From Salinibacterium sp. PAMC 21357 (GTDB lineage Bacteria; Actinomycetota; Actinomycetes; Actinomycetales; Microbacteriaceae), in contig NZ_AHWA01000004.1 of NCBI RefSeq assembly GCF_000247645.1, positions 1,178,001 through 1,242,000 of the forward strand: a stretch of 64,000 bases of DNA. Direction: 5' to 3'. How positions within the stretch are numbered: position 1 is the stretch's first letter; each line of letters opens with the position of its first letter. The position numbers and the translations under genes are program-made. The notes beneath the pieces are model-generated. The model saw nothing but the letters and a program-made list of their open reading frames with translations, ran no database searches and had not been told where the DNA came from. Of this stretch, positions 22,167 through 33,331 are shown in pieces.

Positions 22167-22580
22167 CTAGTCCACGGCGTCGGAGGTGGTGCCGGAGTCG
22201 CTGTTCCAGAACGCACGCTGTTTTTCGCGATCCACAAGCATCGCCGCGTACTGCTGACGCAGGTATTTGGGGTTTACGAGTTCTCGGGAAAGCATCTCTC
22301 TATACGTGAGTTCTGCTTCAGGAAATCGTTCTAACCACAACGAAGCGGAGTACAGGCTGCTAGCGGCGATAAAGGTCAGGAGGAATGTGAACGAAGCCAC
22401 GGTGCTGAGCCACCACGGCGTAACATCTGGGCTGAGCTGAAAGCTGGGCCACACTACGAGAAAGACGAGCACTACTGCGCCGCCAATCGTCGGAAGCGCT
22501 CGAATCCGCGGAACGGTTGCGAGTGCTTGGTAAAGGCCTAGGCCAGCGCCGCTCAGCGCCATCGTCACGATCCACATCAT
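22167..22580 (-). CDS. Membrane protein of unknown function, tandem paralogue B
   Basis: The 137-residue protein starts at ATG 22580, overlapping the stop of the upstream gene (ATGA). It has three or four hydrophobic segments and a cytosolic end with FPEAELTYREMLSRELVNPKYLRQQYAAML. The upstream gene has the same start (MMW), the same FPEA, and NPRDLRKEYAAML, so the two are diverged paralogues arranged in tandem and coupled. I do not recognise the family. A much longer open frame extending upstream is out of frame with the paralogue and is rejected. Confidence 0.65.
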   Translation of the reverse strand: MMWIVTMALSGAGLGLYQALATVPRIRALPTIGGAVVLVFLVVWPSFQLSPDVTPWWLSTVASFTFLLTFIAASSLYSASLWLERFPEAELTYREMLSRELVNPKYLRQQYAAMLVDREKQRAFWNSDSGTTSDAVD

Positions 22581-22921
22581 GCGTTGCTGCGCTCGCCGAG
22601 CATCGCCGCGTACTCCTTGCGCAGGTCGCGGGGATTGGTGAATTGTTGCGCGACGAGCTGCCAGTAGCTGAAGCCGGCTTCGGGGAAGATCCGCAACCAG
22701 ATCCGCGGGGCGTAAGCAACTTGGGTAATGATCAGGCCGCCGAGAAAGGCGTAGCCCATCATCCCGTGGCCTCCTGTTGTTGCGATGATGACGATTACCG
22801 CGCCCATGCCCACCATGAGAATGACGACGTTGGGAAGCGGTTTGTAGGTCGGAGTGCGTGCTTCGCACGACAGCACCCCCGTGATCAATCCGATCACCGC
22901 CGCAATAACCAACCACATCAT
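22577..22921 (-). CDS. Membrane protein of unknown function, tandem paralogue A
   Basis: The 114-residue protein has about three hydrophobic segments and a cytosolic tail FPEAGFSYWQLVAQQFTNPRDLRKEYAAML that matches the tail of the next gene. It starts at ATG 22921 with TAGAGT 7 bases upstream, suggesting leaderless transcription, and diverges from the glycosylase gene across 42 bases. The function is unknown. Confidence 0.65.
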   Translation of the reverse strand: MMWLVIAAVIGLITGVLSCEARTPTYKPLPNVVILMVGMGAVIVIIATTGGHGMMGYAFLGGLIITQVAYAPRIWLRIFPEAGFSYWQLVAQQFTNPRDLRKEYAAMLGERSNA

Positions 22922-22963
22922 GAGACAAACTCTACGTCAGGGGTGCCGCGTAATCTACCCTGT

Positions 22964-23899
22964 ATGACTTTCGCGCTCGCCGCCGCCGAGCCTGTGCGCC
23001 TGCGTTTCGCGCCCGGGCGCCCGGTCGATGTGCGCGCCACCCTGCAGCCGTTGAAGCGTGGTGCCGGTGATCCGACCATGCAGGTGGATGCCACGGGCAC
23101 CTGGCGCACGATGCTCACGCCTGCGGGCCCCGCCACTTTGCTTCTCGTTCAGCACCAGTCGCATGTGGAGTGCACCGCGTGGGGCGCCGGAGCCGAGTGG
23201 GCGATTGACAGCGTTCCCGAGTTGCTGGGGGAGGGCGACGACTGGAGCGACTTCGATGTTTCAGCGCTTCCGTTTGCCGCTGAGGCGCAGCGGCAGAACC
23301 CCGGTCTGCGGTTGACTCGCACTCGACTCGTTTTCGAGGCACTCGTGATGGCGATTCTGGAGCAGAAAGTCACCGGCATCGAGGCGAAGCGGGGGTGGCG
23401 CATCCTCGTCACCAAGTTTGGTTCGCCAGCACCCGGGCCAGCCCCGGCCGGGATGCGGGTGGTGCCGTCGCCGCAGGAGTGGGCGCGGATTCCGTCGTGG
23501 GAGTGGCACCGCGCCGGAGTCGGGCCGCAGCGCTCGGCGACCGTGATGCGCGCGACGCAAGTGGCGGCATCCCTCGAGCGCACGGCCGACTGGGGTCGTG
23601 GCGGGCCGCGCATCGAGGCCGCGCTGCGATCAGTCGTGGGCGTTGGTGTGTGGACGGCCGCCGAAACCGCGCAGCGCTCGCACGCCGACCCTGACAGCCC
23701 GAGCGTCGGCGATTACCACCTTGCCGCCGTCGTCGGCTGGGCGCTGATTGGCGAACCCGTCGACGATGAGCGGATGCTCGAACTGCTCGAGCCTTGGCGC
23801 GGCCACCGTCAGCGCGTTGTGCGACTCATCACGGCATCCGGGTTTCGTAAGCCAGCGTTTGGGCCGCGGATGACGATTCAGGATCACCGGGGGCACTAA
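22964..23899 (+). CDS. DNA-3-methyladenine glycosylase (AlkA-like, HhH-GPD)
   Basis: The 311-residue protein belongs to the HhH-GPD superfamily of base-excision glycosylases. FEALVMAILEQKVTGIEAKRGW is the typical substrate-pocket helix, LRSVVGVGVWTAAETAQ the helix-hairpin-helix, and the catalytic aspartate lies in SVGDYHLAAVV. It should excise alkylated bases. The start at ATG 22964 is supported by TAATCT 7 bases upstream; longer upstream frames run through the divergent membrane-protein genes and are rejected. Confidence 0.88.
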   Translation: MTFALAAAEPVRLRFAPGRPVDVRATLQPLKRGAGDPTMQVDATGTWRTMLTPAGPATLLLVQHQSHVECTAWGAGAEWAIDSVPELLGEGDDWSDFDVSALPFAAEAQRQNPGLRLTRTRLVFEALVMAILEQKVTGIEAKRGWRILVTKFGSPAPGPAPAGMRVVPSPQEWARIPSWEWHRAGVGPQRSATVMRATQVAASLERTADWGRGGPRIEAALRSVVGVGVWTAAETAQRSHADPDSPSVGDYHLAAVVGWALIGEPVDDERMLELLEPWRGHRQRVVRLITASGFRKPAFGPRMTIQDHRGH

Positions 23900-23933: not shown

Positions 23934-24506
23934 TCAGTGCGGCTGTTCCATCGCTCGCTTCACCCGCGCCAGTGCCTCTGCGGCCAGTATCACCAGATCA
24001 TCCCGACCAGCGGTGAGTGACAATGACTCTTCGCCGAGTACGTCGTATGTCAGGTCGACAATCTGTTCAGCACATGTGATGCCCAATGAGCGGATCAGCG
24101 CAGTGATGTCTGCATAGTCCTTGCGCGCATACCGCGCCATTTTCATGGCAAGAAGGGCACGCTGCGAAGCAAGCCGGAGCTTGTGCCCGCGGAGCTCGAC
24201 CTCCACAAAATGTCGCGGATCTGTTGTGTCAAACGTGATGAAAGGGCGGGCATTCTCGTTGACCCAGTCGGGATCCAGGCCGTGCTCTTCAGCCATCTGT
24301 CTTCCGATGAGTTTGACGCGCTCGAACGGGAAGAAGAGGCCATCGACGTCGGGAGTGAGCTGGTCGCGGCCCAAGTGAATTGCCATCGCGGCGCCGCCGA
24401 TAACGTAGGCGTCGACCTCGACACCCTCGGCGGCGGCGCGTTCGAGGAGCTCGCCGAGCAATTCCGTGATTTCGCTCGCGTTGAGTTGACGGTAGCCGCC
24501 GCTCAT
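23934..24506 (-). CDS. Nucleotidyltransferase-fold protein (DUF6036-like), possible toxin
   Basis: The 190-residue protein shows the minimal nucleotidyltransferase motif in VIGGAAMAIHLGRDQLTPDVDGLF (35-58): GG, then the DxD-like DVD. A helical C-terminal half follows. Related DUF6036 or AbiEii-like proteins are often encoded with an HTH partner and act as toxins or defence effectors. Here the gene overlaps the XRE gene by 4 bases and is downstream of it, the usual antitoxin-first order. The toxin role is inference. It could instead be a harmless metabolic nucleotidyltransferase. Confidence 0.7.
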   Translation of the reverse strand: MSGGYRQLNASEITELLGELLERAAAEGVEVDAYVIGGAAMAIHLGRDQLTPDVDGLFFPFERVKLIGRQMAEEHGLDPDWVNENARPFITFDTTDPRHFVEVELRGHKLRLASQRALLAMKMARYARKDYADITALIRSLGITCAEQIVDLTYDVLGEESLSLTAGRDDLVILAAEALARVKRAMEQPH

Positions 24507-25102
24507 GCGATCGCCCAGTCTTCAGCCCGCGAGAGGATGTTCTTGTCAAGGAACACTTGAGGTGTTCGCGCTCGCAGCCAGTCCCGAAATTCTGGACCGG
24601 GGTCGTCGCCGGGTGAGGTTTCGTGGGGCAATGCTGGGACAGCGAGCATCCACTGAGGTGGGGTTTGGCCCGCACGCTCGAGTCCGTACGCAAACGCGGT
24701 CGCGAGGAAGGTGTCCCAGAGTGGGATCCCGATCGGCTTCGACGGTTGCGCTATGGCCCACTGGGGAAGGTTCTCACCGGCCTCGCCGGTGCGAATCAGG
24801 CGCCCGACGCCTTCAGCTAGATCTCGGATGGCCGACTCCGAGTCGCTTTTTCGCAGACTTTCCGTCATCGCCCGGGACACCGTTGTTGGCGACAGCAGTT
24901 GGGCTGCGGATGTTGGTTGTGGGTTGATCTCCCAGCCCGTAGCGGCAAGCAGGCTCTGCATTGTCGACCAGGTCGGATCAATTTCTTCGTGCTCGATGCG
25001 ACTGATTGTCGACTGCGCAATGCCGGCGCGGCGCGCGAGAGCGGCCTGGCTGATGCCCGCGCGAATGCGAGCGGTACGGATCGTTTCGGCTGCGAGCGTC
25101 AT
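24503..25102 (-). CDS. XRE-family HTH protein, possible antitoxin
   Basis: The 199-residue protein has an N-terminal Cro/CI helix-turn-helix (IRTARIRAGISQAALARRAGIAQSTISRIE, about 8-37) and a longer C-terminal domain of unknown fold with LSRAEDWAIA at the end. A GGAGAA ribosome site precedes the start. It is coupled to the nucleotidyltransferase gene. A perfect inverted repeat about 50-70 bases upstream (25152-25173) is a candidate operator for autoregulation. Confidence 0.78.
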   Translation of the reverse strand: MTLAAETIRTARIRAGISQAALARRAGIAQSTISRIEHEEIDPTWSTMQSLLAATGWEINPQPTSAAQLLSPTTVSRAMTESLRKSDSESAIRDLAEGVGRLIRTGEAGENLPQWAIAQPSKPIGIPLWDTFLATAFAYGLERAGQTPPQWMLAVPALPHETSPGDDPGPEFRDWLRARTPQVFLDKNILSRAEDWAIA

Positions 25103-25151
25103 CGGTTCTCCTTTCGCGAGTCATGAGTATTGAGGCTCAGTGTACTTCAGA

Positions 25152-25173
25152 GGCTATGCATTTACGCATAGCC
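25152..25173. promoter_or_regulatory. Perfect 8-base inverted repeat upstream of the XRE gene
   Basis: GGCTATGC and GCATAGCC flank a 6-base centre (ATTTAC). The repeat lies between the end of the ADP-ribosylglycohydrolase gene and the XRE start. It may be the operator for the XRE protein or a short terminator; no U-run follows on the minus strand. Confidence 0.45.
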
Positions 25174-25193
25174 CGCGCGACTTCGATGGTTGC

Positions 25194-26597
25194 TTAGCTG
25201 CGACTAGCCAGCGAAGCGTCGGCAAGCGCCGCGCGAAACGCCCCGTTCGGGCGAGCGTTCGGCAGGGCCGCACGCACCTCAGCCAGCGCGGTGTCGATCG
25301 GCAGCCCGAGGTGCCGCGCGGCATAGAGCGCAGCGACGGTGGGGGTGCGGCTTTGCGCCTGCACGCAGTGGAGCAGCACCGTGTGGCCTTCGGCGCGCAG
25401 GGCGGCCACGGCATCCGCTGCATCGGCGAGCACGAAGAGCAGGTTCGGGTTTTCGGAGGGCGTTGACTTGTCGATCAGGCGCACCTCGACACGGTGGCGG
25501 ATGCGGGCCGGCACCTGCTTAGAGCCGATGCGGCAGAGTGACACCACGGCATCCACTTCGGCCGGAAGCGCGTCGAGCGCGCCGACAGCGCCGAGCCAGA
25601 CGCCGGCGTCGTGCGGATGTGGCACCAGCGTCGATACGTCGCCTAACTTGGTGTAGTCGATGCGTTCGGGCACCGGCTCACCCCGCACGATCTCGGTGGA
25701 GAGGCGCACCAGGTCGAGGCTCGTGAGGTTCGGCCAGCCGTGCACGATGCGCTGCCAGGCGGCGGGAATCGCGGAGAGTCCCCAGCGGGCACCCACGAGA
25801 CCGCCCGCGATCGCGGCCACGGTGTCGGCGTCGCGGCCACCCCGCACGGCACGCTCGAGGGTGTCGACGAGGCTTTCGCCATTGACGATCGCCGACCACG
25901 CGGCCTGCAGCGCTTCCACAACCCAGCCGTTCTTGGTGAAGTCGCGGGGCTGCCGGGTCCCGGCGTCAGCGATGAACTCGGCCCAGCGGGCGGCGCGATC
26001 GGGGGCGAGGGCTGAAAGCCCGACCCGAACATCCGCCTCGCCAGTGAGGATTGCGTGACGGATGGCGAGGCTCCAGAGCACGCAGGCGTCGCCGGCATCC
26101 TCGTCAAAGTGGGTGAGGTCGCTGATCGCGCGCGCCGCCTCGGCGAGACCAGTGGCGTCGCCGAGGTAGGCGAGCGCGACCGGGGCGGTGCGCATGAGCG
26201 AGCCGTTTCCGCCACTGCGACCGCGAGCGTCATGCACGCGGCGGGCGGATGCTCGGGCGGCGCTCGCGGTAGGTTCGATGCCGCGCAGCACTCCGCTGGT
26301 CTGCACCCCGACATCCGGCGCCGTCTTGGCCCAGTTGACCCAGGCCGCGACGATCTCGTCGAGCACAGCCTCGTCGCGCAAGTCGCGACCGGAGGCCGCG
26401 GCGCGCAAGATGGGCACGGCCATGGAGGTGTCGTCGGTCCATTCGCCGGGCGCCCAGCCGAAGCCACCGCCGCCCTGCATGACGACCTCGCCCTCGAAGG
26501 GGGGCCCGAATTCGTAGCCGGCGCCGAGAGCATCGCCGCACGCCATCGCGAGCATCACGCCGGTGGCGCGGTCAGTTTGTGCGCTAGAAAGTCTCAT
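25194..26597 (-). CDS. ADP-ribosylglycohydrolase fused to a dual-specificity-type Cys phosphatase
   Basis: Residues 1-320 form an ADP-ribosyl-hydrolase (DraG/ARH) domain: MACGDALGAGYEF at the start, metal ligands in WTDDTSM (T54, D55, D56) and the C-terminal metal motif GGRDADTVAAIAGG (D256, D258). Residues about 330-467 form a separate phosphatase-like domain with the HCx5R signature (H410-C411...R417-T418) and D376 as a possible general acid. One protein could thus remove ADP-ribose and dephosphorylate a product or protein; the actual substrates are unknown. It follows the GIY-YIG helicase gene by 54 bases with its own GGAG ribosome site. Similar fusions may exist elsewhere in actinobacteria; I cannot check. 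Confidence 0.85.
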   Translation of the reverse strand: MRLSSAQTDRATGVMLAMACGDALGAGYEFGPPFEGEVVMQGGGGFGWAPGEWTDDTSMAVPILRAAASGRDLRDEAVLDEIVAAWVNWAKTAPDVGVQTSGVLRGIEPTASAARASARRVHDARGRSGGNGSLMRTAPVALAYLGDATGLAEAARAISDLTHFDEDAGDACVLWSLAIRHAILTGEADVRVGLSALAPDRAARWAEFIADAGTRQPRDFTKNGWVVEALQAAWSAIVNGESLVDTLERAVRGGRDADTVAAIAGGLVGARWGLSAIPAAWQRIVHGWPNLTSLDLVRLSTEIVRGEPVPERIDYTKLGDVSTLVPHPHDAGVWLGAVGALDALPAEVDAVVSLCRIGSKQVPARIRHRVEVRLIDKSTPSENPNLLFVLADAADAVAALRAEGHTVLLHCVQAQSRTPTVAALYAARHLGLPIDTALAEVRAALPNARPNGAFRAALADASLASRS

Positions 26598-26651
26598 AGG
26601 TTCTCCGTGGCTGTGTCGGTGGGGAAGACCGCAACCTTGCGGCTGCAGGAT

Positions 26652-28442
26652 TCACTCCGTTTCTACGCCGCTGGACGGGATGAACTTCTGTAGGTAGTTG
26701 CGGAGTGCAGGATCGCAGACATAAACGTAGGTGCCACGAATTCCACGGGTGAGGAGCACCGCGTAAACATTGCTGATTAGCTGCAGCAGATCGGCGTCGG
26801 TGTAGACCTTATCGAGCGTTGGATTGTTCTCCTTGCCCTTCTTGTCGAAGTAGGAGTCACGGTCGATGAACAGTGAGTCGGTTTCGGGGTCGTATCTCAG
26901 GTCATTCCCGATGATGACGCCGGCATAGTTGAGGTCGTATCCCTGAACGGTGTGAATCGAGCCGACTTCGTCAACTGAATTTGGGGAGGCGATCCAGTCC
27001 ACCGCCTTGCTGTTCCAGCGAAGCTGACAGCCGTCGATTTCGATGTCGTAGGCGGCGGGCTGCTTCTTGGACTTCCACTCCCACGCGTAGCCAGCGGTAA
27101 GCCTGGACAAACCGAACTCGGCATCCTTCTCGCGAATTTCGTCGTGCATCTGCTCAACACTGTCGAACAGGCGGAAGTCATAGCCCGCAAATTCTTCAGG
27201 TATCAGTGGAGCAGTTTTTGCTTCGATCGATGCGGCACCTATTAGGCGGCGGACGTAGCCAACGTAGTCCGACTCGGCTCGCACTCGCATCTGCGATGCG
27301 AGTCTGTAGTGATTGCTGACAGCTTTCGCGTCTTGAACCAAAGCGCGTGTCACAGACAGCGGGAGGTCGGCGGGGCGAACGCTCTGAGCTTCATCGATGA
27401 GCAAGATCTGATGGCGGCTTTTGGCGCGCAGCCAATCTAACTGCGTCTTAGTTTTATCGTCAGTCCCAAAGAGCGCTTCAGTAATTTTTTTGAACTTGAC
27501 GTTCTGGGGGCCCGAGGCCTGGTTAGCTCGCTGGTTCAGGCGGTGCGCTTCGTCGACGATCAAAATGTCGAAGTCTTCGGTGGACTCTCCGACCTCGAAC
27601 GGAGTCATCACCATGCCCCGAGTCAATCCGGGTGTCTTCGCGAAGACGTTCTGAATGGACTTTCGCAGCGACTGTTGCGGTACAACGATTCCGAGCCGCA
27701 ATCCGTCGAGGATTTGAGGGTAACCGGATGCAAAAAACTCGGAGAACATCGAATCCTGGTCGATGTCATTGCCCGGTTCGGATTGCGCGATGTCGACGAG
27801 TAGCTTCATGAGGTAGATCGCAATTACCGTCTTCCCCGTGCCCGGGTCGCCCTGAATCACAATCGTGCTGAGTTTGCTCTTCTCGAGGTTCTCGAACAAA
27901 CCCTCGACGATGTCTTCAACGGCGATTGCTTGATCAGGGCTGAGCGACTTGAACGGGGACAACTTGAAGAGATCGCTGTTCTCAATCTCCGGGATTGTGC
28001 GCGTGAACACTCCATCGGACCGTAGTTTCTCGAAGACTTCCCGGAACGATGCCTGATAACGCTCACGATCGTAATAATCGGAATCGGTGATCCCGTCGTT
28101 CCGGTTCAACACACGATAGGTTCCGTCCCCGGCAAGCAGACGAATCAGGTACGACTCTAGATCTAGACAGGCTGACTTATTGAATGTGCTGTCGATCACC
28201 ACACGTACCGTCTTAAGGTGACTCTTGCTGCTCGAGTCGATGTGCTGCAACATCCTGCCGGCTGCATTGCGCGACTCGCCCACATAGACGTCGCTGAGCC
28301 GCGACCTATTGCCTGCCACAGTTTTTGCTGCGTCGTCTAGGACATAAACCACGGGCCAATTGGTATTTCGCGCGCTTAACTGGGCCCAGACTCCGATGTC
28401 TTGCTTCTTGAACGCGACCCGCTCAATCTCAAAGTCGGTCAT
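26652..28442 (-). CDS. GIY-YIG nuclease / DUF2075 superfamily-1 helicase fusion
   Basis: From ATG 28442 the protein has 596 residues. The N-terminal 115 residues match a GIY-YIG nuclease: VVYVLDD (31-37), VYVGES (52-57), R63 and E96. A DUF2075 (Schlafen-like P-loop) NTPase follows, with Walker A GDPGTGKT (198-205), Walker B ILIVDEAH (293-300), a further LLIDEAQS motif (347-354), and late helicase motifs around VGSIHTVQGYDLNYAGVIIGNDL and LLTRGIRGTYVYVCD. Such fusions are predicted nucleic-acid-cleaving, ATP-driven enzymes often found near defence genes. Its start overlaps the MazG-like gene by 14 bases. Confidence 0.87.
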   Translation of the reverse strand: MTDFEIERVAFKKQDIGVWAQLSARNTNWPVVYVLDDAAKTVAGNRSRLSDVYVGESRNAAGRMLQHIDSSSKSHLKTVRVVIDSTFNKSACLDLESYLIRLLAGDGTYRVLNRNDGITDSDYYDRERYQASFREVFEKLRSDGVFTRTIPEIENSDLFKLSPFKSLSPDQAIAVEDIVEGLFENLEKSKLSTIVIQGDPGTGKTVIAIYLMKLLVDIAQSEPGNDIDQDSMFSEFFASGYPQILDGLRLGIVVPQQSLRKSIQNVFAKTPGLTRGMVMTPFEVGESTEDFDILIVDEAHRLNQRANQASGPQNVKFKKITEALFGTDDKTKTQLDWLRAKSRHQILLIDEAQSVRPADLPLSVTRALVQDAKAVSNHYRLASQMRVRAESDYVGYVRRLIGAASIEAKTAPLIPEEFAGYDFRLFDSVEQMHDEIREKDAEFGLSRLTAGYAWEWKSKKQPAAYDIEIDGCQLRWNSKAVDWIASPNSVDEVGSIHTVQGYDLNYAGVIIGNDLRYDPETDSLFIDRDSYFDKKGKENNPTLDKVYTDADLLQLISNVYAVLLTRGIRGTYVYVCDPALRNYLQKFIPSSGVETE

Positions 28443-28749
28443 ATTTAGTGCTCGCGCCTTGGGCTTTCTCGACGGGGTATTTTTCCCGTGAAACGGCAAG
28501 TTTGTCTCTAACAATCTGATCGGGAGTTACTCCTATTCGATCAGCGAGCATGAAGCAGTAGGTCAAGACGTCGGCGAGCTCTTCTTGAACTCGCTCCGGA
28601 TCGGCCTGTGCGTTCCACTGGAAACACTCGAGCAGCTCGCCAGCTTCGATTGAGATGCTCTTGGCCAGGTTCTCCGGTGCGTGAAACTGTCCCCAATCGC
28701 GCTCCGCCACGAAGGCCCTGATCTCGTCTCGGAGAGAAGGTTCATCCAT
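28429..28749 (-). CDS. MazG-like nucleotide pyrophosphohydrolase
   Basis: The 106-residue protein is an all-helical NTP pyrophosphatase: FHAPENLAKSISIEAGELLECFQW and EELADVLTYCFMLADRIG carry the ExxE(12-28)ExxD metal pattern. These enzymes hydrolyse (deoxy)nucleoside triphosphates, usually aberrant ones. TAGGTT sits 6 bases before ATG 28749, so a leaderless promoter may start here. The overlap with the helicase gene indicates joint expression. Confidence 0.88.
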   Translation of the reverse strand: MDEPSLRDEIRAFVAERDWGQFHAPENLAKSISIEAGELLECFQWNAQADPERVQEELADVLTYCFMLADRIGVTPDQIVRDKLAVSREKYPVEKAQGASTKYDRL

Positions 28750-28774
28750 ATCGCCAACCTAGCAGCGATCCCGC

Positions 28775-31700
28775 TCAGACGACCGGAGCGTCGCCTTCGG
28801 AGAGCGCGGCACCCTCAACCAACGAGATAAACCGACTCAACGTCGCCACGCCCTCCGCGGTCTGCGGCAGCGAGTCGAGCAGTGCGGGCGAGTAGACGAG
28901 GTACGCGGCCCACTGGGCGCGGGAGATGGAGACGTTGAGGCGGTTGCGGGAGAGCAGGAAGTCGAGGCCGCGGGGCACATCGTCGGCGCTCGAGGCGGCG
29001 AGGCTCACGATCGAGATGACTGCTTCTCGGCCTTGGAACTTGTCGACGGTGCCCACGACCACGCGCGAATAGCCCGCAGCATCGAGGCGGCCGCGGATGA
29101 GCTCCACCTGCGCGTTATACGGCGTCACCACGATGATGCCGTCCTCATCGAGCGGTTTCGGGGAGCCGCCGGCCTGCGATGTCCAGAGGGCTCCGAGGTG
29201 CTCGCGCACTAGCTCCACCACGCGGTCGGCTTCTTCGCTCGCGAACGTCGAGTTGTCGACATGAGCGGTCGGCACCGAGTGCAGCCCGGGGGCGACGCCG
29301 GCGAGCATCCGCCCCTCTGTTGACGCGTGCGAGCGCAGCAGGCCGTCATACGAGAGTTGCGAGACGGGGCGCGTGACGGCCTCATCCATGCGGCGGCTCT
29401 CCTCCAGGAAGTAACCGAAGTCATCCGGAAGCACCGCCAGCTCACCAATCACATGACCCAACGCCGAACCATCAACCGGGGCCGGATGGATGCCCTGGCT
29501 CACCTGCGGAAGCTGCTGCGGGTCGCCGAGCAGCAAGATGCGTTTCGCGCTCGCCGCCACCCCGATCGTGTTCGCGAGCGAAAACTGGCCCGCCTCATCG
29601 ATCACGAGAAGGTCGAGCTGGTCGGCCTGCACACGCTTGCGGTTCGTCAGATCCCACGCGGTGCCGCCGATGACGTAGCCCGAGTTCTCGTGCTCGAGGG
29701 CGAAACCCGCGTGACCGTTGTAGGGCAGCTCGCTGAAGGGACCGTCGGCGTAATAGCCCGGCCCGAACTCGCCCGGCACCGCCTTCGCCACCAGCTCGCG
29801 GTCGAGGCTCGCGTCGAGCACGACCGCATCGAGAACGTTCTCGACCACCTTGTGCGACTGCGCGGTGATGCCCACCTTCCAGTGGTGTCTCTCGACAAGT
29901 TCGTGGATGACATGGGCCGCCAGATACGTCTTGCCCGTGCCGGGAGGACCCTGCACGGCAAGATAGCCGCTCGGCCGCGAGACCAGCGAGGCGATGACGG
30001 CGCGCACCCCATCATCCGCACTCTTCATGGGTTCGAGCGCACTCACCGTGGCGGGCGCTTTGTGCAGGAGAAGATCGGACATTGCGTCGTCGGGCCACTC
30101 GGGAGCGGCGGCAACGACCGTCTCGCCCCAGGCTTCGATCGCGGCGACGATACTGTCGGCGCGCGGGGGAGGGCCGGGCGTGATGTGGGTGGGCATCTCA
30201 TCCCACGCCGGGATCTCGTCGGGGCGAGTCTCGATCACAAAGATGCCATCGGCATCCTCGGCGGGGTCAGAAAAACGCACCGCGCGGGCAAGGCGGTGCC
30301 CGGCGCGATGGCCCGGCGGAACGTACGGAAGCGGGTTGCCGTAGACGAGAAACACGTCGCCACCCGGCCGCGGCGCACTGCTGCCCGGCGCCCACTGGCC
30401 ACGCAGATACAGGTGCCGACGCTCGTTGCGTTGGCGTCCCTCCTTATGCCAGTCGAGCGTCAGCATTGCGCTGTCGATCACGAAGATTCCGCGAGTGTCT
30501 TCCCACAGTTCGGAGGGCTGCTCGAGGCGGTCGTAGTGCTCCCACCAGAAACTCTTGACCTCGCGCCGGTGATAATCGATGGCGGCCGCGGCCATGCGAT
30601 AGGCGCTCGCGGCAGTGTCGTCGCCTTGCTCCTCGGCATCGTCGCCGAGAGCCTGCAGTTGAAGGTCGAGCGCGCTGGGTTCGAAAACCTTCACATCAAG
30701 CTCGGTCTCGTCGACGTCGACGGTCACGCCCTGCACCTCGGGCAGTGCCCGCAGCCAGTCGCGCAGTTTGAGCGTCGACACGCAGTCGTACTCGTTGTAG
30801 CGGGCGATCGCATCCCGAATCTCGGTCGCCCGTTCCACGTCGCCGTTGGCTGCCGCGACGCTCGACTCGACGTACTCGCCAATGGAATCGGCCGCGTTCG
30901 TCACCCCGGCGCGCTCCTCGTCACCCATGTAGAGCGGTTCAAGTTTCTTGATCGAATACGACGGCGTTCCGATGCGCAGCGCGCCCCGCACGATCGGGTA
31001 CAGGTCGACGAGCACACCCTCGCGCAGCAGCTGGTCGACAACATCCTCACCCTCGCCATGCCGCGCGGCAATGCTCAGCAGATGCGTCTTCTCATAGCTG
31101 GCGTAGTGATAAATGTGGAGGCCCGGATGCTGCTGCCGCCGTTCCGTGACGAACTTCAGGAATGACCGCAGCGCGATTCGTTCCTCATCCAGGGAGTGCG
31201 CCCAGAGGCAGTCGAAGTCGCCCGCGGCATCCACCCAACCGAAGAGGTAATCGAGGCCCCAGCGCGGCGTTCCGCCGATACCGGGCTCGGAATACATCGG
31301 GTCGCCCTCGAAGTCGAAGAAGAGGTCGCCGGGGTTGGGCGCGGGCAGGCTCGCGATCGGCAGGGGATCAACAACGACGACGGGCGGTTTCGCGTGGGAG
31401 TCAGCCGGATCGACCGTGTGCTGCAGTTTGGCCTGAAGATGAAGCTTCGCGAAACTCGCCTTCGGGATCGCGAGGTCGTCGGGTCGCTCGGAGGCTTCCG
31501 CTAAATCAGTGAGGGTGCGGATGCCCGCCGCCAAGAACTTCGTGCGCTGCCCCGCGCGCAACCCCGCGACCGTAAACAGGTCGTCGGCAGCCTGCGAGGG
31601 CTCCTTGCAGAACTTGCAGCGGCCATCCCGCGCAAAGCGTTCGTCGTGCCATTCGACGGGCGTACCTTCAGCGCGGTGCTCGGCGATGATCGCGTGCATG

Positions 31701-32299
31701 CGGGCGCGACGGCGTCGAAACACGGGGGCGATATCGGCGACGGAGGCGAGCTCGGAGGTGTCATTGCCGAGGATCAGTTCGACGGTTCCGTTGGCGGCAA
31801 CGCCGAGCTTCAGAAGTTGCTCGTGATACGCCGCCAGTTGAAGCAGCGCGGTGACGCGCACGTGGCGCGAGAGCTTCGAATCGACGACCCGATAACTGCC
31901 GTCGGGCTGCTGGACGAGAAAGTCGGCGTAACCGATGAACGGTGACTCGGGGTCGGTTTCGTCAAAGAACACGCCCTGAAAAACGACGGGCGCGCCGGCC
32001 AACAGAGCGTCGCGCGTGCGTGCCGCGTAGTCGCGCAGCACCGCGGCATCCCGCCCCGGAGGCTTATCGAACTCGACCATCGCATCACCGAACTCGTCGC
32101 GATAGCGATCCCGCAACCGGGCCTCATGGGCGTTGCCGAGCTCAGCCGCCCGCATGAGCATCGCATCGTCGTCGGGCAGCGGATCAGTCGAGAACCCCAA
32201 CCGCTTGTCGAGCACGCGCAAAAAACCGAACTCGCAGTTCGAGGCTTGGGTCAGATCGCTGGCGCTCGTGACGAGAGCGGTATCGGTGAGAAGGTACAT
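28775..32299 (-). CDS. TM0106-family RecB-like nuclease fused to a DNA2/UPF1-like helicase
   Basis: The 1174-residue protein starts with a RecB-type nuclease domain whose PD-(D/E)xK core appears as VVDSKLSRH near residue 140. A CKFCKEP cysteine cluster near 229 may help bind an iron-sulphur cluster or zinc. A middle RNase-H-like segment follows (LFFDFEGDPMYSEP, then NEYDCVSTLKLRDWL). The C-terminal part is a superfamily-1 helicase with Walker A GPPGTGKT near 785, Walker B LLVIDEAGQF, and late motifs DKFQGREAVI and NVSISRAQ. It should unwind and cut DNA or RNA. It occurs widely in actinobacteria, so a general repair role is as likely as defence. It is the first of six same-strand genes. Confidence 0.88.
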   Translation of the reverse strand: MYLLTDTALVTSASDLTQASNCEFGFLRVLDKRLGFSTDPLPDDDAMLMRAAELGNAHEARLRDRYRDEFGDAMVEFDKPPGRDAAVLRDYAARTRDALLAGAPVVFQGVFFDETDPESPFIGYADFLVQQPDGSYRVVDSKLSRHVRVTALLQLAAYHEQLLKLGVAANGTVELILGNDTSELASVADIAPVFRRRRARMHAIIAEHRAEGTPVEWHDERFARDGRCKFCKEPSQAADDLFTVAGLRAGQRTKFLAAGIRTLTDLAEASERPDDLAIPKASFAKLHLQAKLQHTVDPADSHAKPPVVVVDPLPIASLPAPNPGDLFFDFEGDPMYSEPGIGGTPRWGLDYLFGWVDAAGDFDCLWAHSLDEERIALRSFLKFVTERRQQHPGLHIYHYASYEKTHLLSIAARHGEGEDVVDQLLREGVLVDLYPIVRGALRIGTPSYSIKKLEPLYMGDEERAGVTNAADSIGEYVESSVAAANGDVERATEIRDAIARYNEYDCVSTLKLRDWLRALPEVQGVTVDVDETELDVKVFEPSALDLQLQALGDDAEEQGDDTAASAYRMAAAAIDYHRREVKSFWWEHYDRLEQPSELWEDTRGIFVIDSAMLTLDWHKEGRQRNERRHLYLRGQWAPGSSAPRPGGDVFLVYGNPLPYVPPGHRAGHRLARAVRFSDPAEDADGIFVIETRPDEIPAWDEMPTHITPGPPPRADSIVAAIEAWGETVVAAAPEWPDDAMSDLLLHKAPATVSALEPMKSADDGVRAVIASLVSRPSGYLAVQGPPGTGKTYLAAHVIHELVERHHWKVGITAQSHKVVENVLDAVVLDASLDRELVAKAVPGEFGPGYYADGPFSELPYNGHAGFALEHENSGYVIGGTAWDLTNRKRVQADQLDLLVIDEAGQFSLANTIGVAASAKRILLLGDPQQLPQVSQGIHPAPVDGSALGHVIGELAVLPDDFGYFLEESRRMDEAVTRPVSQLSYDGLLRSHASTEGRMLAGVAPGLHSVPTAHVDNSTFASEEADRVVELVREHLGALWTSQAGGSPKPLDEDGIIVVTPYNAQVELIRGRLDAAGYSRVVVGTVDKFQGREAVISIVSLAASSADDVPRGLDFLLSRNRLNVSISRAQWAAYLVYSPALLDSLPQTAEGVATLSRFISLVEGAALSEGDAPVV

Positions 32300-32410: not shown

Positions 32411-33331
32411 ATGACTGGCAGCCCCACTCCACGGCCGAAACGTTTTTCGGCGCTGGCGTTGGCCTTAGCGCCCGAGCGGGAGCCGAAGTTGGCGTTCCCG
32501 CCGCGGGGCAGCGCGCTGATCGGGCCAGTCGAGGCTCCCGCGCTGCAGGTGATGTCGTACAACATCCGTCGTCGCGGCCCCGAGCTGTTGCCGCGCAGCC
32601 CCGACCTTTGGAGGCGTCGCCGGCCGCTAATAAAACGACTGCTCGCCGCCGAACAGCCCGCGCTGCTCGGCGTGCAAGAAGCCCTGTTCACGCAGGCCAG
32701 GTTTGTGCGCCAAGCGCTGGGGGAGCACTACCGTTCGATCGGCTACGGCCGCGAGAAAAACACGGGTGGCGAAGGCTGCCCCATCTTTTACGACTCCCGG
32801 CGACTGCAGGTCATCGAGTGGCGTCAGACCGCTCTCTCAGACACCCCGAATATTCCCGGTTCGACCTCCTGGGGCAATCGCACTCCGCGCATCGTGGTGG
32901 AGGCCATCTTCTTGGACCTCGCCACCGGCATCCAGTTTCAGGCCATCAACACCCATCTCGACCACCGCTCCCGCACTTCGCGGCTGCGTTCAGCCGATGC
33001 GCTCAGAAGCATCGTGCAGGCGACACCGCATCCCACGATCATGACCGGCGATTTCAATACGGATGCCGCCACCGACCCGTACGACCAGCTCACCGGCAAC
33101 GGGCTGCTGGTCGACACCTGGGACACCGCCGCGGAGCGCGTCACTCAAGTGTGGGGAACGTTCCCGAACTACGGCCCGCCCAAGCACAACCGCAAACGGA
33201 TTGACTGGGTTCTGGCAACGCCCAGCGTCACGGCGCTGCAGGCCGCCATCAACGTCACGCGCTATGAGCGCGGTTGGCCGTCGGATCACGCGCCGGTGCA
33301 GGCCGTTGTGCGTCTTGCTCGGACCGAATAG
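32411..33331 (+). CDS. Endonuclease/exonuclease/phosphatase family protein
   Basis: The 306-residue protein has the EEP-fold active-site series: LQVMSYNIRRR, LGVQEALF with the metal-binding Glu, INTHLDHRS, MTGDFNTDAATD and SDHAPVQAV with the catalytic histidine. Substrates of the family range from DNA to phospholipids and inositol phosphates. No signal peptide is seen, but the N-terminus before residue 40 is basic and unconserved. ATG 32411 has TAGGCT 6 bases upstream, the same context as the M13 gene. Confidence 0.87.
   Translation: MTGSPTPRPKRFSALALALAPEREPKLAFPPRGSALIGPVEAPALQVMSYNIRRRGPELLPRSPDLWRRRRPLIKRLLAAEQPALLGVQEALFTQARFVRQALGEHYRSIGYGREKNTGGEGCPIFYDSRRLQVIEWRQTALSDTPNIPGSTSWGNRTPRIVVEAIFLDLATGIQFQAINTHLDHRSRTSRLRSADALRSIVQATPHPTIMTGDFNTDAATDPYDQLTGNGLLVDTWDTAAERVTQVWGTFPNYGPPKHNRKRIDWVLATPSVTALQAAINVTRYERGWPSDHAPVQAVVRLARTE

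Follow-up and report, generated by a model that had tools for sequence, protein, structure and literature searches.

A MazG-helicase gene pair in a probable two-slot, mosaic defence hotspot of Salinibacterium

AbiO and Nhi have a nuclease-helicase architecture, and nucleotidyltransferases (NTases) of the AbiEii type have AbiEi as their partner. Defense-island integration hotspots are described in PMC10121019, and operons centred on ADP-ribosylglycohydrolase (ARG) in PMC9503650, where they are predicted to reverse the ADP-ribosylation that phages impose on host molecules and to be controlled by a Nudix or WYL repressor; this repressor is given there for over 42% of ARG systems, and coupling of the ARG domain to a phosphatase, mostly as R-P, for just over 55%. 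Here we analysed six consecutive minus-strand open reading frames (ORFs) at positions 23934 to 32299 of a 64,000-nucleotide stretch of DNA (the window) from Salinibacterium sp. PAMC 21357 (RefSeq assembly GCF_000247645.1, contig NZ_AHWA01000004.1, positions 1,178,001 to 1,242,000). In transcription order, they encode a RecB-like nuclease/helicase (RecB), a MazG-like NTP pyrophosphatase (MazG), a helicase with a GIY-YIG-like domain, an ADP-ribosylglycohydrolase fused to a phosphatase-type domain (ADPRG), an XRE/HTH regulator (XRE) and an NTase. A single composite system of six genes is refuted by our data, and the locus is, with high confidence, a mosaic defence hotspot with two slots, holding four independent units. 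The result removes a false six-gene system and puts three testable statements in its place: this genus has a defence hotspot with two slots, an ARG operon is present in putatively stripped form, and a pair of MazG and nuclease-helicase, with a swapped nuclease-like domain, is broadly conserved.

A fixed frame with two variable slots

The genus sample comprised 27 genomes, including that of the window (G000; relatives carry G numbers where they must be told apart). RecB was found in 19 of them, ADPRG in 10, and a helicase match in eight (seven full length). Ten genus genomes, the window's included, have a RecB of at least 85% protein identity and are referred to here as the clade; they are exactly the ten that bear ADPRG, and since the clade is defined by RecB, the constancy of ADPRG alone is informative within it. 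We found that the window and its nine relatives share one fixed frame, consisting of a gene of the endonuclease/exonuclease/phosphatase (EEP) family, RecB, slot 1, ADPRG, slot 2, a conserved plus-strand gene, a rhodanese gene and a phosphofructokinase gene (the gene right of slot 2 was not reached in G129, and the last two were read in five of the nine relatives). The plus-strand gene had 83.9-93.4% DNA identity in seven of the nine relatives and was present in G141 too; it had no Pfam match at E<=0.001.

Slot 1 is short in the window (2.2 kb) and in G132 (2.3 kb), and spans 10.5-37 kb in the remaining eight genomes; it contained the MazG-helicase pair in three of the ten (the window, G132 and G130). 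Nineteen large ORFs picked from the slots, three of them from slot 2, were compared with PADLOC at E<=1e-10, and 15 matched, with slot 1 matches in all seven genomes scanned. Specifically, slot 1 contained a type IIG restriction match in G082, where Pfam also identified GmrSD; a type II methyltransferase in G126; ZacC in G120; a DrmD-like helicase and type III restriction in G131; HmaB and HmaC, besides the MazG-helicase pair, in G130; a type III methyltransferase and a UvrD/GajB-like helicase in G143; and DruE- and DrmD-like proteins in G129, whose ORF sizes were nearly matched by those in slot 1 of G141. Slot 2 held the XRE-NTase pair in the window, G120 and G141, only about 17 bp in G132, and other DNA in the remaining genomes, with no XRE-NTase in the 1.5 kb read past ADPRG in G129. 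Conserved flanks and variable defence cargo among close relatives, the features by which a hotspot is recognised, are thus both present. In G143, slot 2, where the window has XRE-NTase, contained matches to Wadjet JetA and JetC with two more ORFs in line (L155:3230-9916).

The locus is mosaic, and its modules have been swapped. By DNA, the window RecB was nearest to those of G129, G126 and G082 (93-94%), all of which are without the MazG-helicase pair, and the window ADPRG shared 94-95% DNA identity with G082 and G126 and 96-97% protein identity with G082, G126, G129 and G141; despite the near-identical ADPRG protein, the RecB of G141 was just 83% identical to the window's in DNA. The window helicase shared 91% DNA identity with G132 and G130, in which the values were 85% for RecB and 78-81% for ADPRG. 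Phosphofructokinase was also about 91% identical to that of G132, so that identity alone is no proof of transfer. The presence/absence pattern of the modules nevertheless shows exchange or repeated loss. In G130, a start-less ADPRG fragment (C1:1897143-1897220; residues 2-27, with ACG replacing the start codon) lies directly behind the helicase, followed by the Hma cargo and by the whole ADPRG, about 17 kb from the fragment, which is a recombination scar at ADPRG. Cargo may have been exchanged via recombination within the anchor genes, with the TM0106-type RecB-helicase as the resident left anchor.

The MazG-helicase pair

The novelty of the locus lies in this pair, a DCTPP1-like MazG and a helicase of superfamily 1 (SF1) and Schlafen group 3 (SLFN-g3) with a GIY-YIG or PD-(D/E)XK-like domain. 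The same sample of 120 family genomes was searched with each of the six proteins, and for co-occurrence we counted strong matches only, by cut-offs of our own (helicase in 30 genomes, MazG in 28, RecB in 70, ADPRG in 16 and NTase in 8). Helicase and MazG occurred together in 28 genomes, the helicase alone in two, MazG alone in none and neither in 90 (p=2.5e-25). A wider survey of other genomes, covering several phyla, left 80 loci after selection, and at 66 of these MazG adjoined the helicase. We placed the helicase start at the ATG at 28442 instead of the TTG at 28514 of the mechanical ORF, Met-Thr being found there in 28 of 30 aligned homologues; this start gives the 14-nt overlap with MazG, which was the same in 25 of 28 family loci with an adjacent MazG (window counted).

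Residues of catalytic type are conserved in both proteins. The closest solved relative of MazG was dCTP pyrophosphatase 1 (E=1.4e-18), and E35, E38, E57 and D60 of the ExxE...ExxD motif, which we take to be metal-binding, were invariant in 27/27 homologues. In the helicase, the Walker motifs were intact and invariant among homologues. The GIY-YIG match of the window protein (17.3 bits) was under the Pfam cut-off of 22.6, and the domain matched at E<=0.01 in 25 of 30 homologues, with invariant Y, YxG, R, E and N, the catalytic ones among them being assigned presumptively. Among homologues, the N-terminal domain alternates between GIY-YIG and PD-(D/E)XK-like; swapped nuclease-like domains are common in conflict systems. 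No sequence relative of the helicase was present in solved structures at E<=0.01, a profile search gave weak P-loop matches only, and no GIY-YIG structure was among the fold-search matches listed, where the helicase fills the list.

By analogy and context, an anti-phage role of the pair seems somewhat probable to us. As an exchangeable two-gene module of slot 1, it might act through a helicase that loads onto invading nucleic acid and a GIY-YIG domain that cuts it, while MazG would hydrolyse dCTP or modified dCTP and so starve phage replication. We tentatively propose, at somewhat less than even confidence, that the pair is an unnamed immune system of several bacterial phyla, with a few archaeal homologues and interchangeable N-terminal nucleases, in which hydrolysis of dCTP (or phage-modified dCTP) is joined to helicase-nuclease attack on the replicating invader; if so, nucleotide depletion and nucleic-acid cleavage would be combined in one operon. 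Searches of the open-licence PMC literature found no paper on a DUF2075 or Schlafen/GIY-YIG helicase with MazG as a defence pair and no name for the pair; the papers that came nearest were, by title and abstract, unrelated or about a phage nuclease, and the text of PMC10482375, on the Actinobacteria arsenal, mentions neither MazG nor DUF2075. MazG is listed in PMC13092281 as a predicted, unvalidated defence domain, a question that the pair makes directly testable.

Two points weigh against a defensive role. The pair has no known phage phenotype, and the excess of PADLOC matches among helicase neighbours elsewhere is weak: at E<=1e-30, the 73 neighbouring proteins of at least 250 aa from 10 loci matched 48 families, against 28 for 105 proteins from 10 control stretches of these genomes, each at a distance of 500 kb, which by listed names (25 families listed each) corresponds to about nine and about four distinct proteins, respectively. 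This weakness favours a housekeeping explanation, in which the pair would clean the nucleotide pool in conjunction with repair and its location in the hotspot would be incidental; MazG/DCTPP1 enzymes are nucleotide-pool cleaners, and SF1 helicases act in repair. We regard this explanation as rather unlikely, given the patchy distribution of the pair (strong helicase matches in 30/120 family genomes; 3/10 in the clade), the known defence cargo that shares slot 1, the swapping of the N-terminal domain and the counting of PF09848, the helicase family, among Abi Pfams in PMC10121019.

Carriage of the pair by phages or plasmids was considered and rejected, since none of the four phage and 40 plasmid records found reached 60% identity. 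The best of the phage records (L240, MT836409.1) has a 54% helicase homologue on an unverified, unannotated 10.6-kb faecal contig that is possibly bacterial. In Marivirga (L185:9974-12178), the GIY-YIG-SLFN helicase that adjoins MazG ends in a C-terminal S24 peptidase domain (PF00717), as though a LexA-like sensor had been fused to it.

The six-gene set and its subsets

At E<=0.001, matches in the 120 family genomes numbered 79 for RecB, 30 for MazG, 34 for the helicase, 22 for ADPRG, 57 for XRE (mainly to the HTH part alone) and 28 for NTase. Seven gene pairs, XRE not included, were tested for co-occurrence and, beyond MazG-helicase, none was significant: p was 0.67 for helicase and RecB, 0.23 for helicase and ADPRG, 0.18 for RecB and ADPRG and, for NTase, 0.41 with the helicase, 0.72 with RecB and 0.29 with ADPRG. 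Within 10 kb on either side of the helicase at 20 loci of other family genomes (tblastn >45 bits), there was no RecB, no NTase, one ADPRG and one XRE-like HTH. RecB and helicase were both present in 19 family genomes, and lay less than 10 kb apart in that of the window alone; the next nearest pair was 10.7 kb apart, and five were on separate contigs. The first-pass annotation, made from the sequence alone, had suggested a possible composite island of defence or nucleic-acid repair and had named beforehand a check of gene order across relatives that could refute it. We found that the genes occur apart in the family, save MazG-helicase, and that the six-gene order is confined to the window genome among those examined. 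The island stands, as the site of a defence hotspot, and the one composite system falls. Because it is absent from every other genome examined, the six-gene set looks like a chance assembly, which that annotation had offered as its alternative, with two or three modules where we see four.

Several observations speak against four independent units in a defence hotspot. Four of the 19 scanned slot ORFs had no PADLOC match, and lone matches, in many cases to a helicase or a methyltransferase, are no proof that a defence system is complete. Genes 1 to 4 are not separated by any promoter or terminator signal in a consensus scan. The order RecB-MazG-helicase-ADPRG occurs in two genomes (G000 and G132), with a trace in G130, and this four-gene arrangement may be long-lasting. 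Twelve family genomes have both RecB and ADPRG; despite the non-significant co-occurrence of the two genes, they lay less than 30 kb apart in eight of these genomes, across genera, and may be linked beyond chance. In G140, a distant relative (RecB 57%), the MazG-helicase pair lies directly upstream of RecB, on the opposite side compared with the window (L147:6728-12371). The four-gene order, the ADPRG trace behind the helicase in G130 and the abutment of RecB and the pair in G140 would suit a sub-system of RecB, MazG, helicase and ADPRG that XRE-NTase joined later. We consider such a sub-system improbable, since ADPRG is present in all ten clade genomes and MazG-helicase in three, and since helicase and RecB show no significant association in the family, where over 10 kb or a break between contigs separates the two in 18 of the 19 genomes with both. 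That all six genes are co-transcribed as one composite defence or nucleic-acid-repair system, as the single strand, the short gaps and the lack of terminator-like sites in those gaps might suggest, is scarcely credible in view of the uniqueness of the order, the lack of any significant pair beyond MazG-helicase among the seven tested and the conserved palindrome that XRE-NTase carries of its own.

The hotspot reading with its four units is the one by which the features in Table 1 are labelled. The six ORFs proved to be exactly as first annotated, with gaps of 25, -14, 54, 91 and -4 bases in transcription order, and the proposed domain types were recovered, those of GIY-YIG and DSPc tentatively, by matches below the Pfam cut-off. 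RecB scored 144.8 bits with TIGR03491 (curated cut-off 97.45) and matched RNase_H_2, AAA_11 and AAA_12 in Pfam; MazG matched PF12643 (E=2e-21); the helicase matched PF09848, which we take to be the former DUF2075, at 229.6 bits (cut-off 24); ADPRG matched PF03747 (E=1.3e-52) and DSPc (E=1.7e-6; 28.3 vs 33.5 bits); XRE matched HTH_31 (E=5.8e-11); and NTase matched DUF2204 at 20.9 bits, barely over the cut-off of 20.3. The consensus scan found no sigma-70-type promoter in the segment (shuffle mean 1.5), and the 10 terminator-like sites that it found, against a shuffle mean of 5.7, all lie outside the gaps between the six genes. Mokosh is composed of a helicase and a Ser/Thr kinase; it was rejected as an identity for RecB, as the best listed PADLOC stretches (MkoA/MkoC) were confined to the helicase region and no kinase family was found in the protein at E<=1. 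A small ORF (22577-22921) has a diverged neighbour copy of 28% identity (window 22221-22921), and the set of copies differs between relatives.

Table 1. Features of the locus, in window coordinates
Feature	Position	Strand	Remarks
RecB-like nuclease/helicase	28775..32299	-	1174 aa; TM0106-type RecB-like nuclease, RNase H-like and SF1 helicase; left anchor of slot 1
MazG-like NTP pyrophosphatase, DCTPP1 type	28429..28749	-	106 aa; mobile pair, gene 1
GIY-YIG-like domain and SLFN-g3 SF1 helicase	26652..28442	-	596 aa from ATG; mobile pair, gene 2
MazG/helicase ORF overlap, 14 nt	28429..28442	-	couples the pair
ADPRG-dual-specificity (rhodanese-phosphatase superfamily) fusion	25194..26597	-	467 aa; anchor separating slots 1 and 2
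XRE/HTH regulator	24503..25102	-	199 aa; slot-2 pair
NTase	23934..24506	-	190 aa; slot-2 pair
Inverted repeat, 22 bp	25152..25173	-	likely operator for XRE, with core TATGCGTAAATGCATA at 25155-25170; upstream of TACACT element
Outer left landmark, EEP family protein	32411..33331	+	PF03372; adjoins RecB in nine close relatives
Outer right landmark of slot 2	22817..23899	+	next to rhodanese and phosphofructokinase genes; start codon provisional

ADPRG, XRE-NTase and known systems

The phosphatase part of ADPRG resembled solved dual-specificity phosphatases (2hcm, E=9e-8; DUSP28, E=4.7e-6), and the fusion contains HCVQAQSR, a CX5R motif. The neighbours of ADPRG in relatives are NrtR, which combines Nudix with an NrtR winged helix, and ARPP-1, joined in some genomes by a protein that matches HD_4 weakly. 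ARPP-1 was found in eight of the 27 genus genomes, in each case 0.6-1.3 kb from ADPRG, and these are the clade minus the window genome and G132, the two clade genomes in which MazG-helicase abuts ADPRG. A genome-wide search of the window genome did not find ARPP-1 with the protein query that matched in the eight relatives. Among the Pfam matches of the six genes, there was no Nudix or WYL repressor and no ARPP, and no ADP-ribosyltransferase or sirtuin, for which the wider neighbourhood was not scanned. From the ARPP and NrtR genes beside ADPRG in relatives, together with the ARG architecture described in PMC9503650, the window gene is best read as a stripped member of a predicted NrtR-ARPP-ARG operon, in which the core enzyme is left but neither the repressor nor ARPP. 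The full operon (NrtR repressor, ARPP, sometimes an HD-like protein, and ARG-phosphatase) is predicted to strip phage-made ADP-ribose from host molecules, and the window would hold its leftover, after loss of the repressor and partners; a published, predicted operon would thus have been caught in stripped form. A keyword search of the open-licence PMC literature found no paper treating ARPP-1 and ADP-ribosylglycohydrolase together.

An XRE-like gene lay at most 300 bp upstream of NTase in 17 of 20 loci (at a lenient E<=1 for XRE). The palindrome before XRE, TATGCGTAAATGCATA in the window, is conserved as TATGCGTATACGCATA in G120 and in G074, a member of another genus, with the TACACT element near it; its pattern occurred in three of the 27 genus genomes (the window, G120 and G141), at one site each, all beside ADPRG, and in none of the other 24. 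More distant XRE-NTase pairs had other palindromes or none. Among 2000 shuffles, 20-37 had a palindrome of equal arm length ahead of XRE and, since shuffles reproduce the arm length, the evidence lies in the conservation and rarity of the palindrome, not in its length. The palindrome is likely to be the XRE operator, and an early hint of -10 elements within the gene array holds for this pair, with its conserved putative operator and TACACT element. In NTase, G37, G38, T51, D53 and D55 were invariant in 20/20 homologues. Foldseek matched its model (pLDDT 93.7) weakly with an NTase-like protein (E 6e-4), with LnuA and with MenT1, and no sequence relative was present in solved structures at E<=0.1. 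Judged from sequence, the pair occupying slot 2 looks like an autoregulated, toxin-antitoxin-like unit, in which XRE would repress its own operon and NTase would be the toxin.

Each unit can be compared with a described system. Like AbiO and Nhi, the pair has an SLFN-g3 SF1 helicase behind an N-terminal nuclease-like domain, but it differs in its near-constant MazG partner, and the PADLOC matches to AbiO and Nhi (E 1.7e-6 and 1.5e-5) were weak and limited to short P-loop stretches. Unlike SLFN11 and SLFN14, the window helicase showed no Schlafen-type N-terminal domain in Pfam, the GIY-YIG-like domain preceding the helicase instead. XRE-NTase resembles toxin-antitoxins of the MenT/AbiEii type in that a small NTase adjoins a DNA-binding partner, and the weak fold match of the model to MenT1 points in the same direction, whereas the partner here is an XRE protein and is not AbiEi-like. 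As in the ARG-centric systems of PMC9503650, ADPRG is fused to a domain of the rhodanese-phosphatase superfamily, and the relatives add a Nudix/NrtR repressor, ARPP and an HD-like protein, whereas in the window these partners are gone and the ADPRG gene is alone. Compared with the defense-island hotspots of PMC10121019, the locus differs in that none of the 25 listed of 57 Pfam families in 78 cargo and backbone proteins is that of an integrase, transposase or resolvase, and in that the window has no tRNA, but is alike in its fixed flanks, between which close relatives carry differing defence cargo.

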